Below are positions 9,484 to 13,791 of a stretch of 38,039 nt of DNA, in pieces. Position 1 is the first letter of the stretch. Every line of letters starts with the position of its first letter. A program made the translations under genes and the position numbers. Under the pieces are notes generated by a model, which had not been told where the DNA came from, made no database searches, and saw only the letters and a list, made by a program, of their open reading frames with translations. The stretch lies in NCBI GenBank assembly GCA_029974225.1, contig JARKSP010000029.1:1-38039 (forward strand), given 5' to 3'. The DNA comes from Erysipelotrichaceae bacterium (lineage in GTDB: Bacteria > Bacillota_I > Bacilli_A > Erysipelotrichales > Erysipelotrichaceae).

Positions 9484-12400
9484 TTAAAATAGAGATAACT
9501 GATTTTCTTCAGCTAAATGATCTAATACACCCATTCTTTCAAAGTTGGCCAGCTGAGTGTTATTAACAGATGTTCTTTTTAGCAGATCTTCCTTAGAAAT
9601 AAATTTCTGATTTTCTCTTTGCTCAACAATGGAATAAGCTACAGCTTCTCCCAGTCCATCAATACTGGTAAAGGCAGGAATTATGCCAAATTCATCATCC
9701 GGATCAATAATGAAATGGGTTGCCTGGGATTTTTCTAAAGAAATATTGTTGAAATGATATCCTCTTAGATACATCTCTAAAGCGATTTCCAGAACCAGCT
9801 GCAGGTCTTCTTCTCTTTTAGTCAGTTTTACTCCCGAAGAAGCCTTGTCCTGTATTTCATTTAAACGATTATAAATCGCCACTTTACCCTGCAGCATCGT
9901 TTCAATTTCATAGGCATCACAGCGACAGGTGAAATATACCGCATAGTAGGCTGCCGGCTGATGGACCTTATACCAGGCCACTCTGACTGCATTCATCGCA
10001 TAGGCAACTGCGTGGGCCTTAGGGAACATGTATTTAATCAAAAGACACGAATTAATGTACCAGTCCGGAACATTATGCTGATTCATGGTTTTAATCCACT
10101 CGTCCTTCAAGCCTTTTCCTCTTCTCACCGATTCCATTATCTCGAAGGCGGTTATCTTTTCCAGACCCTTGGAAATCAGATAGGTCATAATATCATCTCG
10201 ACAGGAAATGACATCATTCAAATCACAGATACCCTTTTCTATTAATATCTCCGCATTATTGGTCCAGACATCTGTACCATGGGTTACCCCCTCAATGGCA
10301 ACCAATTCATTAAAAGATGAAGGTTTGGTCTTATCAAGAATCCTTCTGATATTGCGGGTACCAAATTCCGGCAAACCGGCAGCCCCATTCAGTTCACTGT
10401 ATAACCCATCAGGATCAGAAATATTTAAAGAATCAGTTGAATAAAACACCTGATAGACCTTAGGATCACTCATAGGAACATCACTGTAATGGATGCCCGA
10501 AAATAGAGATAACAATCTTATGGAAGTTGGATCAATGTGCCCTAGAATATCCAGTTTCAGGATATTGTCATGTAAATCAGCAAAAGCAAAATGAGTTGTT
10601 TTCCAGTCACTGAAAGGATTGTTGGCCGGATACTGAATTGGCGTAAAATCATGGACATCCTTTTCTTTAGGAATAACCACTATACCTCCAGGATGCTGTC
10701 CGGTAGTTCTTTTAACCCCTTCACACATTTTGGATAAAACTTCGTTGAAATAATCAGAAAAATGTGGAACACCGATCTCTTCACAATAGGCTTTTACATA
10801 ACCAAAAGCTGTTTTCTGGGCAACTGTACCAATTGTTCCTGCTCTATAGGTATACTGTTCACCAAAAATATCTTTGACCTGCTGCATGGCAGTTCCCTGA
10901 TAGTCAGGTGAAAAGTTTAAATCGATATCAGGCACTTTGTCAGCATCAAATCCCAAGAAAGTTTCAAAAGGGATATTGTGTCCGTTTCTGTTTAAAGGGG
11001 TCAAACATTCAGGACAGTCTTTTTCTGGTAAATCAAAGCCATTGGCATATTCATTATTAACAAAGAACTGTGAGTAATGGCATTTTGGACAGACATAATG
11101 AGGAACCAGAGGATTAACTTCGGTAATATTGGCCATGGTAGCAATAAAACTACTGCCGACTGACCCTCTGCTTCCTACCGGATAACCATCAGCTTCAGAC
11201 TGCTTAACCAGCAGATGAGCAATATAATACTGTACCGAATAACCGTTTTTGATAACATTGGTTAACTCTTTTTCAATTCGTTCCGCAACTATATCAGGTA
11301 ATCTGTCACCGTAGATACGATGTGCGTTCTTATATATTTCATCAGTGATAACGACATCACAGCCTTCTATGGTTGGCGTAATCAGTTTGCTGGGAATCGG
11401 ATATTCCTTTTCTATCATATCAGCAATCATATTGGTATTTTTTATAACAAACTCTTCTGCTCTGCCGGTCCAGTCGAATTTTTCCAACAGTTCCCGGGTT
11501 GTCATCAGATGCTGATTAGGAGAAGTGAAAACTTTTCTTTTTTCAAAATTCATCGGATACATCGGGTGTCTTAAACCACCGATTCTTTTTCCCATGATAT
11601 AAATATCACGAGCTATCTTCTGATAAGGATGGGTGTAATACGGATTGCTGCTGGCAACAATCGGTTTATTAAGCTTATCTGCAGTTCTGATAATATCCTG
11701 TACTACCATTTTGATTCTTGCCATATCAAAAGAAGAACCAACTTCTACTAAATATTCATAATTTTCCAAAGGATGTAACTCTATATAGTCATAAAATTTC
11801 ATGCATTCCTCTAAATCAGCCATGCTTCTGTTGCTGGCGATTTCAAAAAGTCTGGAGTACTGATCACAGCTGCCGATCAGAATATTCTGTCTTCTTCTTT
11901 CGACTTCGGATTGAGTAATCCTTGGTTCAGCAGAAACATCAGCATCTATTTTTCTAGCATTCTCCTTGGCAAAATATGTTAAATAATCTGTATGAGACAG
12001 AGTTACTATCTCATAAATATCTTTAATACCAGCCAGATTCTTAGCCAGTAATGTGGCACTGTAAGGTCGAGCTTTTTTAAAAATATCTTCTTCCTGCTTG
12101 TTTTGCAGATCTTCAAAGGTAATATTCTCAAAATCCGGTATTAAAGGAATCATTCTAACCAGAATATTAGCTAGCACATCGGCGTCATAGTCAGCTCTGT
12201 AAGCGATACTGTCGTCATATGCCACATCAAAATAATTGGCTATTACTCCCAAACGATAGTATTTTCGATCTTTAACGGTTTCTCTAGCCAGATTTAAAGT
12301 ATCCAGACAAATGTTGTTTAAAGGTTTTCTTCCCAGTCTAATTAAAGTATCATTTAGAAAATTAAAGTCAAAGTCTGCATTATGAGCCACTATTACCCGG

Positions 12401-13791
12401 TCTCCGATAAAATCAACTATCTGGTCAATAGCCTTTTCAATCGGTAAAGCATCTTTCAGCATTTCATTGGTGATATTGGTTTTATTGACAATGAAAGCCG
12501 GTAAGTCAATTGGCGGTTTGACAAACAGCTGCATTCTTTCATGAGTAATGGTATTTCTAGCTACTATAACCGCGCCAAATTCAATAATATGATCGTATTT
12601 AGTCGATAAACCGGTTGTTTCCAGGTCTAAAACACAATATTCCTTATCAACCAGCAATTCAGAAGTAGGATTATAAACGATATTTAATCTATCAGGAACA
12701 ATTTTTACATCAATACCGTAAATAATTTTAAAATCTCTGTTCGGATTATTCTTTTCCAGTTTTTTATGTGTCTGTTGTGCCAGTGGATAGGCCTGAACTA
12801 CACTATTATCAGTAATAGCAATCGCTTTATGGCCAAAATTAAAGGCTTGCGTAATGATTTCTTCAGTTTCTGAAATTCCGTCATATTCACTTCTATTGGT
12901 ATGAGCATGCAGTTCAACATGCTTTAAACCCGGATAATCATCATATCTGACATAGGGGTCCTGCAGCATTTCTTCAATCAGATCAAGCTCAAAAACATTG
13001 GCTTTCTCAAAAGGGTCGTATTTAACTTCCCCATATATTTCAACGCACATACCTTCGGTTACCGGCAGTTTGATATTCTCTGACATATTGTCAGAAACAA
13101 ATCTTTTCACCAGTACGGCATCATAAAAATCCGTAACAATGAATTTTTCCACATTAAAAATCTTACCGCTTTTATTTCTGAAACTTCTTAAATCAACAGA
13201 AAAAACCTTTCCCCGGCAAAAGATTTTATTATTTGAAGCATTGATTTTGTTCATCGTAAGGAATAGATAGTCATTTCTGTTGCCTTTGAATCTGCTTCTG
13301 TATCTGCCGTCTGATATTTTAAAAGAGTTATTATCAAAAGCGACAATTTCTTCCGTATCGCTAATATTTTTTTCTGATTTTAAAACAATTTCCTTTTTAA
13401 TACCCAGATCATTCAAAAACCTCTTTAAAGATTTAAAGATTTTCTTATCTTCAATATTAATAAATATTTTTTCACCATCCACTACCGGTATCAGATTAAG
13501 ACTGGTATTATTTTTCTGATTATAGTAATCAATATAGCTCATGATGTCTGAGGAATTGATTTCCTGATTAGTTATCTTAAAAGTCAGGTTGACTGAAAGA
13601 TGCAGATATTCTGATAGTTTTGAAGTGAGTTCTTCAATAACCGGATAGGGTAAAAACTGATGATTAATTACTTTCATGCTGATCAGATTATTCTTTTTAT
13701 CAAGTTGCGGGCGACACAAAATAACCCTTTTTATTAAACTAAGGGTTTCCTGACTAAAATGAATCTTATCAAGTAGAAAATCAATATCCAT
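9484..13791 (-). CDS. polC: DNA polymerase III alpha subunit, PolC type, with altered exonuclease and PHP motifs
   Basis: 1435 residues, the full length of Gram-positive replicative PolC. Order: N-terminal domains; OB fold (about 170-275); PHP domain with HAH at 295-297; inserted 3'-5' proofreading exonuclease (about 385-550); rest of PHP; polymerase core. Visible core motifs are a Cys4 zinc element (CPKC and CPEC), PDIDLNF with the catalytic Asp pair, and LKLDILGH. The C-terminus ends QLSLF, the canonical sliding-clamp binding pentapeptide. Exonuclease motif I (D389-L-E391) and II (H470-N-A-D473) are intact. In motif III, where Bacillus PolC has HRAIYD, this protein has Y531-R-A-D-Y-D536, so the catalytic His is Tyr. 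In the PHP domain TDHA reads TDNS (N329). The gene starts directly after the rnc stop, with only a weak GGTAAA ribosome-binding site. Confidence 0.97.
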   Translation of the reverse strand: MDIDFLLDKIHFSQETLSLIKRVILCRPQLDKKNNLISMKVINHQFLPYPVIEELTSKLSEYLHLSVNLTFKITNQEINSSDIMSYIDYYNQKNNTSLNLIPVVDGEKIFINIEDKKIFKSLKRFLNDLGIKKEIVLKSEKNISDTEEIVAFDNNSFKISDGRYRSRFKGNRNDYLFLTMNKINASNNKIFCRGKVFSVDLRSFRNKSGKIFNVEKFIVTDFYDAVLVKRFVSDNMSENIKLPVTEGMCVEIYGEVKYDPFEKANVFELDLIEEMLQDPYVRYDDYPGLKHVELHAHTNRSEYDGISETEEIITQAFNFGHKAIAITDNSVVQAYPLAQQTHKKLEKNNPNRDFKIIYGIDVKIVPDRLNIVYNPTSELLVDKEYCVLDLETTGLSTKYDHIIEFGAVIVARNTITHERMQLFVKPPIDLPAFIVNKTNITNEMLKDALPIEKAIDQIVDFIGDRVIVAHNADFDFNFLNDTLIRLGRKPLNNICLDTLNLARETVKDRKYYRLGVIANYFDVAYDDSIAYRADYDADVLANILVRMIPLIPDFENITFEDLQNKQEEDIFKKARPYSATLLAKNLAGIKDIYEIVTLSHTDYLTYFAKENARKIDADVSAEPRITQSEVERRRQNILIGSCDQYSRLFEIASNRSMADLEECMKFYDYIELHPLENYEYLVEVGSSFDMARIKMVVQDIIRTADKLNKPIVASSNPYYTHPYQKIARDIYIMGKRIGGLRHPMYPMNFEKRKVFTSPNQHLMTTRELLEKFDWTGRAEEFVIKNTNMIADMIEKEYPIPSKLITPTIEGCDVVITDEIYKNAHRIYGDRLPDIVAERIEKELTNVIKNGYSVQYYIAHLLVKQSEADGYPVGSRGSVGSSFIATMANITEVNPLVPHYVCPKCHYSQFFVNNEYANGFDLPEKDCPECLTPLNRNGHNIPFETFLGFDADKVPDIDLNFSPDYQGTAMQQVKDIFGEQYTYRAGTIGTVAQKTAFGYVKAYCEEIGVPHFSDYFNEVLSKMCEGVKRTTGQHPGGIVVIPKEKDVHDFTPIQYPANNPFSDWKTTHFAFADLHDNILKLDILGHIDPTSIRLLSLFSGIHYSDVPMSDPKVYQVFYSTDSLNISDPDGLYSELNGAAGLPEFGTRNIRRILDKTKPSSFNELVAIEGVTHGTDVWTNNAEILIEKGICDLNDVISCRDDIMTYLISKGLEKITAFEIMESVRRGKGLKDEWIKTMNQHNVPDWYINSCLLIKYMFPKAHAVAYAMNAVRVAWYKVHQPAAYYAVYFTCRCDAYEIETMLQGKVAIYNRLNEIQDKASSGVKLTKREEDLQLVLEIALEMYLRGYHFNNISLEKSQATHFIIDPDDEFGIIPAFTSIDGLGEAVAYSIVEQRENQKFISKEDLLKRTSVNNTQLANFERMGVLDHLAEENQLSLF

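Follow-up and report, generated by a model that had tools for sequence, protein, structure and literature searches.

A tyrosine at the catalytic histidine position of the PolC proofreading exonuclease in an uncultured Erysipelotrichia genome

Proofreading sites of replicative polymerases and the polC locus

In DEDDh exonucleases, the D-E-D-D carboxylates bind two metals, which position the 3′ phosphodiester, and the histidine of motif III activates the attacking water. DEDDy enzymes carry a tyrosine four residues before the motif III aspartate, inside a helix (PMC11194089). Escherichia coli clones with the dnaQ H162Q allele have a mutant frequency that is higher by two orders of magnitude (~100-fold) (PMC5867336), and the activity of MrfB is significantly lower when its histidine is replaced in the H258A mutant (PMC11194089). 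In Bacillus subtilis, the mut1A mutation in the PolC exonuclease confers a strong mutator phenotype, and this exonuclease also proofreads errors made by DnaE (PMC5627055). An active PHP proofreader is recognized by the nine-ligand signature HHDHEH[C/H]DH, and a survey of more than 3000 complete genomes found that the PHP proofreader of Pol III catalytic subunits decays while the DnaQ-type proofreader does not (PMC12926913). We found no report of a His-to-Tyr change in PolC, or of its activity, in the literature searched.

The window, by which we mean the whole stretch of 38,039 nucleotides that was analysed, forms contig 28 of a draft genome of 1.57 Mb (120 contigs, 95% complete) from an uncultured member of the Erysipelotrichia. 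The closest relatives with a name are metagenome-assembled genomes labelled Erysipelotrichia bacterium. The window carries the following gene.

9484..13791, minus strand: polC, DNA polymerase III PolC-type, 1435 aa, a single open frame, intact

The initial annotation had named this gene as PolC, and the NCBIfam profiles bear the name out with scores far over their cut-offs (NF001688, 1543.5 bits with a cut-off of 873; TIGR01405, 1444.8 bits with a cut-off of 1043). The match is full-length, and the product has the full domain order expected of a PolC-type polymerase, with the exonuclease sitting inside the PHP domain. No second copy of PolC was found in the source genome. The neighbouring genes form a standard cluster: rimP, nusA, infB and rbfA are on one flank of polC, and rnc (RNase III) and recG are on the opposite flank. 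The gene order of the window matches that of three congeners across almost its entire length. A broken gene or a misassembly of polC is ruled out, as the frame is intact and collinear with the congeners.

The G+C content of the window (positions 1-38039) is 37.3%, and that of the collinear contigs of the three closest congeners is 28-31%. GC varies widely within the genus, and the fourfold-site GC of polC spans 0.11 to 0.83 among relatives. The fourfold sites are too diverged for an informative comparison of mutation spectra, which these GC shifts also confound.

Motif residues and structure of the exonuclease domain

The exonuclease domain and its motifs map as follows.

12112..12648, minus strand: DEDDh (DnaQ-like) proofreading exonuclease domain, residues 382-560, PF00929 match
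12619..12627, minus strand: motif I, D389-x-E391, intact, invariant in 221 of 221 sequences
12367..12384, minus strand: motif II, H470-N-A-D-F-D475, in which D475 is the catalytic Asp (Asp in 222 of 222)
12199..12201, minus strand: codon 531, TAC, encoding Tyr where the catalytic His of DEDDh enzymes stands in 222 of 223 PolCs
12184..12186, minus strand: motif III Asp536, intact

At codon 531 the initial annotation had read a tyrosine in the position of the catalytic motif III histidine. Alignment to the Enterococcus faecium PolC (PDB 9QPC) confirms this reading: the local stretch AYRADYDADV, within the context SIAYRADYDADV, lines up with HHRAIYDAEA of that enzyme. The only histidines between residues 380 and 570 are those at 401, 417 and 470, so that no alternative histidine is available to motif III. 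It had also been pointed out that TAC is one step from CAC, and the three closest congeners, with PolCs 81-82% identical to that of the source genome, indeed carry CAC or CAT at this codon. The description of motifs I and II as intact holds for D389, E391 and H470 but needs amending in one residue: D473, which had been taken as part of the intact motif II, is not a metal ligand and varies across the order, unlike the metal-binding D475. Four of the residues of an active DEDDh exonuclease, D389, E391, D475 and D536, are therefore present, and the histidine five before the motif III Asp is absent. The spacing is not that of the DEDDy class either, as had been noted from the start, since Y531 stands five residues before the Asp (YxxxxD instead of YxxxD) and the residue at the DEDDy position is R532.

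Modelling of the domain, which the initial annotation had proposed, gave an AlphaFold model of high confidence (pLDDT 95.7) with a DnaQ-like DEDDh fold. Its highest-scoring structural match is the exonuclease of E. faecium PolC (9QPC; Z 25.6, 33% identity, rmsd 1.6 across 180 residues), with further matches to DinG, Pol III epsilon (2GUI, Z 24.4) and other DEDDh enzymes, and its closest solved relatives are DEDDh enzymes only. In the model, Tyr531 (model residue 154) is placed just before the last helix (156-173), which is the DEDDh arrangement. From precedent we infer that Tyr531 would cost PolC its exonuclease activity and raise the mutation rate. The earlier suggestion of a weak or inactive site is thus plausible, harm being documented for the equivalent His changes in epsilon and MrfB.

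Distribution of Tyr531, other proofreaders and age of the change

The PolC sequences compared came from three sources: the genus, 146 genomes of the order, and ~130 genomes sampled across the class. The alignment holds 226 sequences, of which 223 cover residue 531. Histidine occupies the position in 222 of the 223 PolCs of the same order and class and tyrosine in one. This alignment of relatives, likewise proposed at the outset, places Tyr531 in the source genome only, and lineage-wide loss of the histidine is excluded because the congeners retain it. As judged from the aligned sequences, Tyr531 is a private change of a single genome and not a property of the genus or the lineage.

The background rate of such changes was counted in 160 near-invariant PolC columns over 151 sequences of the order. 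These columns hold 32 singleton departures, 10 of them in one frameshifted gene, and the ~22 that remain correspond to about 1 departure per 1000 site-genomes. By arithmetic from this background, a survey of 146 order genomes should contain ~0.7 departures among the five catalytic residues; one was observed, so that uniqueness alone is no proof of a biological event. H531Y is the sole departure from a near-invariant column in the source PolC.

In L137 (the polC of G104), H470 of the HNA motif is replaced by Gln in an exonuclease that is otherwise normal, and the class alignment contains one more PolC of this kind. In two single-contig genomes, polC is interrupted and reads as two or three frames (L186 of G116 and L188 of G066), probably through frameshift errors in assembly. 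No C-family polymerase was found in two genomes of the same family as the source (G046 and G067, 98-99% complete), for which a data gap is likelier than a bacterium without Pol III. In class family f12 (G234, G246, G219, G173, G203 and G227), the PolC frames are 1518-1887 aa long and match the query in fragments, which suggests insertions or strong divergence.

The PHP signature of the source PolC reads HHDNDSDNY. Six of the nine ligands are changed, and the signature departs from that of an active PHP proofreader at the following positions.

12805..12807, minus strand: PHP ligand 4, N329 for His, lost; N, T or I genus-wide
12709..12711, minus strand: PHP ligand 5, D361 for Glu, changed
12058..12060, minus strand: PHP ligand 6, S578 for His, lost
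11863..11865, minus strand: PHP ligand 7, D643 for Cys/His, lost
11638..11646, minus strand: PHP ligands 8 and 9, N716 for Asp and Y718 for His, lost

The site is degenerate in the source PolC and in L002-L007 and L013-L017, with ligand 4 mostly N, T or I and ligand 9 mostly Y; the more distant L018 and L021 retain the TDH and DVHY motifs of the PHP domain. Among the 220 PolCs in which both sites are readable, the PHP site deviates in 48, and 47 of these retain the exonuclease histidine, the exception being the source PolC. By residue comparison, the PHP loss is at the level of a clade, the genus and its closest relatives, in which the DEDDh histidine is retained.

The N-terminus of DnaE, the replicative partner of PolC, is without PHP His motifs in the source genome, a degeneracy that agrees with published surveys of DnaE3 (PMC3919608). 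A PF00929 search of the genome found no spare DnaQ or DinG-type domain, that of PolC being the only one, and MutS and MutL are intact. The degenerate PHP site of PolC, the DnaE PHP without its His motifs and the lack of a spare DnaQ in the search, none of which the initial annotation had taken up, are what would make Tyr531 matter: if real and inactivating, it would remove the last recognizable Pol III proofreader and leave mismatch repair.

After a long absence of proofreading, the unused domain would be expected to have drifted and the branch to be long. The exonuclease domain has four private changes in the source genome and five (G001), two and none in the three closest congeners; relative to these congeners, no relaxed constraint was seen on the rest of the domain, and Tyr531 is the only private change in it at a site that is invariant in further relatives. 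Relative-rate counts for PolC, source versus the three congeners, are 72/71, 73/60 and 75/59, so the source branch is not significantly longer. For the proteins of the collinear window the counts are 215/189, 208/171 and 219/162 (the last against G003), with chi2 values of 1.7, 3.6 and 8.5, suggesting that the source branch is accelerated at most mildly. With no drift of the domain and no clear excess on the branch, the change would be recent, tolerated or erroneous, which argues against an old, fixed mutator lineage.

Readings of Tyr531 and comparison with known systems

Our preferred reading, held tentatively and at a probability of roughly 0.48, is that Tyr531 is a real missense change of recent origin that severely impairs proofreading by PolC, a natural allele of the mutator type. 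Tyr531 would have arisen recently and be present in the sampled population. Lacking DEDDy geometry, the site would keep its binding of metals and DNA, and cleavage would be expected to be slow with the tyrosine in a loop five residues before the Asp. With the other proofreaders gone, fidelity would be guarded mainly by mismatch repair. Under this reading we infer the loss of activity, the mutator phenotype, the recency of the change and the correctness of the base call alike. An error in the consensus, the assembly or the reads, or a strain or minority variant that entered the contig, would put the same tyrosine in the sequence, and we hold this to be unlikely while granting it an appreciable chance. 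The genome is a draft of 120 contigs at 95% completeness, the exonuclease domain is conserved elsewhere, and another genome (L137) shows a lone H470Q in the same domain; with ~0.7 catalytic singletons expected over 146 order genomes, a single one is within background and leaves room for an artefact. The gene is nevertheless intact and collinear, its sequence is not generally noisy, as Tyr531 is its only near-invariant departure, and CAC-to-TAC is an ordinary transition outside any homopolymer.

A real but tolerated tyrosine, whose hydroxyl (or the metals alone) would give reduced but useful exonuclease activity with little effect on fidelity, is in our view rather unlikely. None of the 222 other PolCs has a tyrosine here though it is one transition away, the spacing is YxxxxD with R532 at the DEDDy position, and the equivalent histidine changes are harmful in epsilon (PMC5867336) and MrfB (PMC11194089); on its side are a constraint on the domain equal to that of the congeners, a branch acceleration that is mild at most, the use of tyrosine for this role by DEDDy enzymes, and the closeness that is possible between His and Tyr frameworks, as MrfB shows (PMC11194089). 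That proofreading was instead lost long ago and fixed, as an endpoint of PHP decay in the genus with reliance on mismatch repair, would fit the earlier PHP decay, the lack of a spare DnaQ-type domain in the PF00929 search and the slight branch excess against G003 (219 vs 162, chi2 8.5). We consider it highly improbable, given that the idle domain is unrelaxed and PolC is without clear acceleration; the GC of 37% against 28-31% in the closest congeners would also favour it, but GC in the genus varies widely regardless. Improbable, too, is a natural bacterial lineage whose chromosome is replicated without any functional Pol III-linked proofreader (be it PolC PHP, PolC DEDDh, DnaE PHP or a spare DnaQ) and which is viable through mismatch repair.

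If the change is real, a PolC with both proofreaders gone would be an exception to the genome survey described above (PMC12926913) and would show the consequence of losing the last replicative proofreader in nature; if it is a recent mutator allele or a base error, the case is an ordinary one. The sturdier result is that, among the 220 PolCs, the exonuclease histidine is retained in all 47 other sequences with a decayed PHP site, in keeping with an indispensable role for the DEDDh site as proofreader.

The source PolC shares its domain order, the position of the exonuclease within the PHP domain and residues D389, E391, D475 and D536 with the PolCs of E. faecium (PDB 9QPC/9QRN) and B. subtilis, and differs from both in the tyrosine at the catalytic histidine and in its degenerate PHP site. 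In E. coli DnaQ (Pol III epsilon) H162Q, the equivalent motif III histidine of a replicative proofreader is replaced (PMC5867336), but there the proofreader is a separate subunit, the new residue is Gln rather than Tyr, and the allele emerged during drug selection in the laboratory. The polC mut-1 and exonuclease-null alleles of B. subtilis represent proofreading loss inside PolC itself, with mismatch repair intact, although these alter other residues and were engineered or selected in the laboratory. DEDDy exonucleases have Tyr as their fifth residue, as here, yet theirs lies four residues before the Asp in a helix, whereas that of the source PolC lies five before it in a loop. The PolCs of Clostridia and Negativicutes that lack the exonuclease are likewise without a DnaQ-type proofreader, but in these the whole domain is absent, and PolC is paired with DnaE1, an enzyme with a PHP domain that is highly conserved in Firmicutes (PMC3919608); in the source genome, by contrast, the exonuclease domain is present and the PHP sites of PolC and DnaE are both degenerate.
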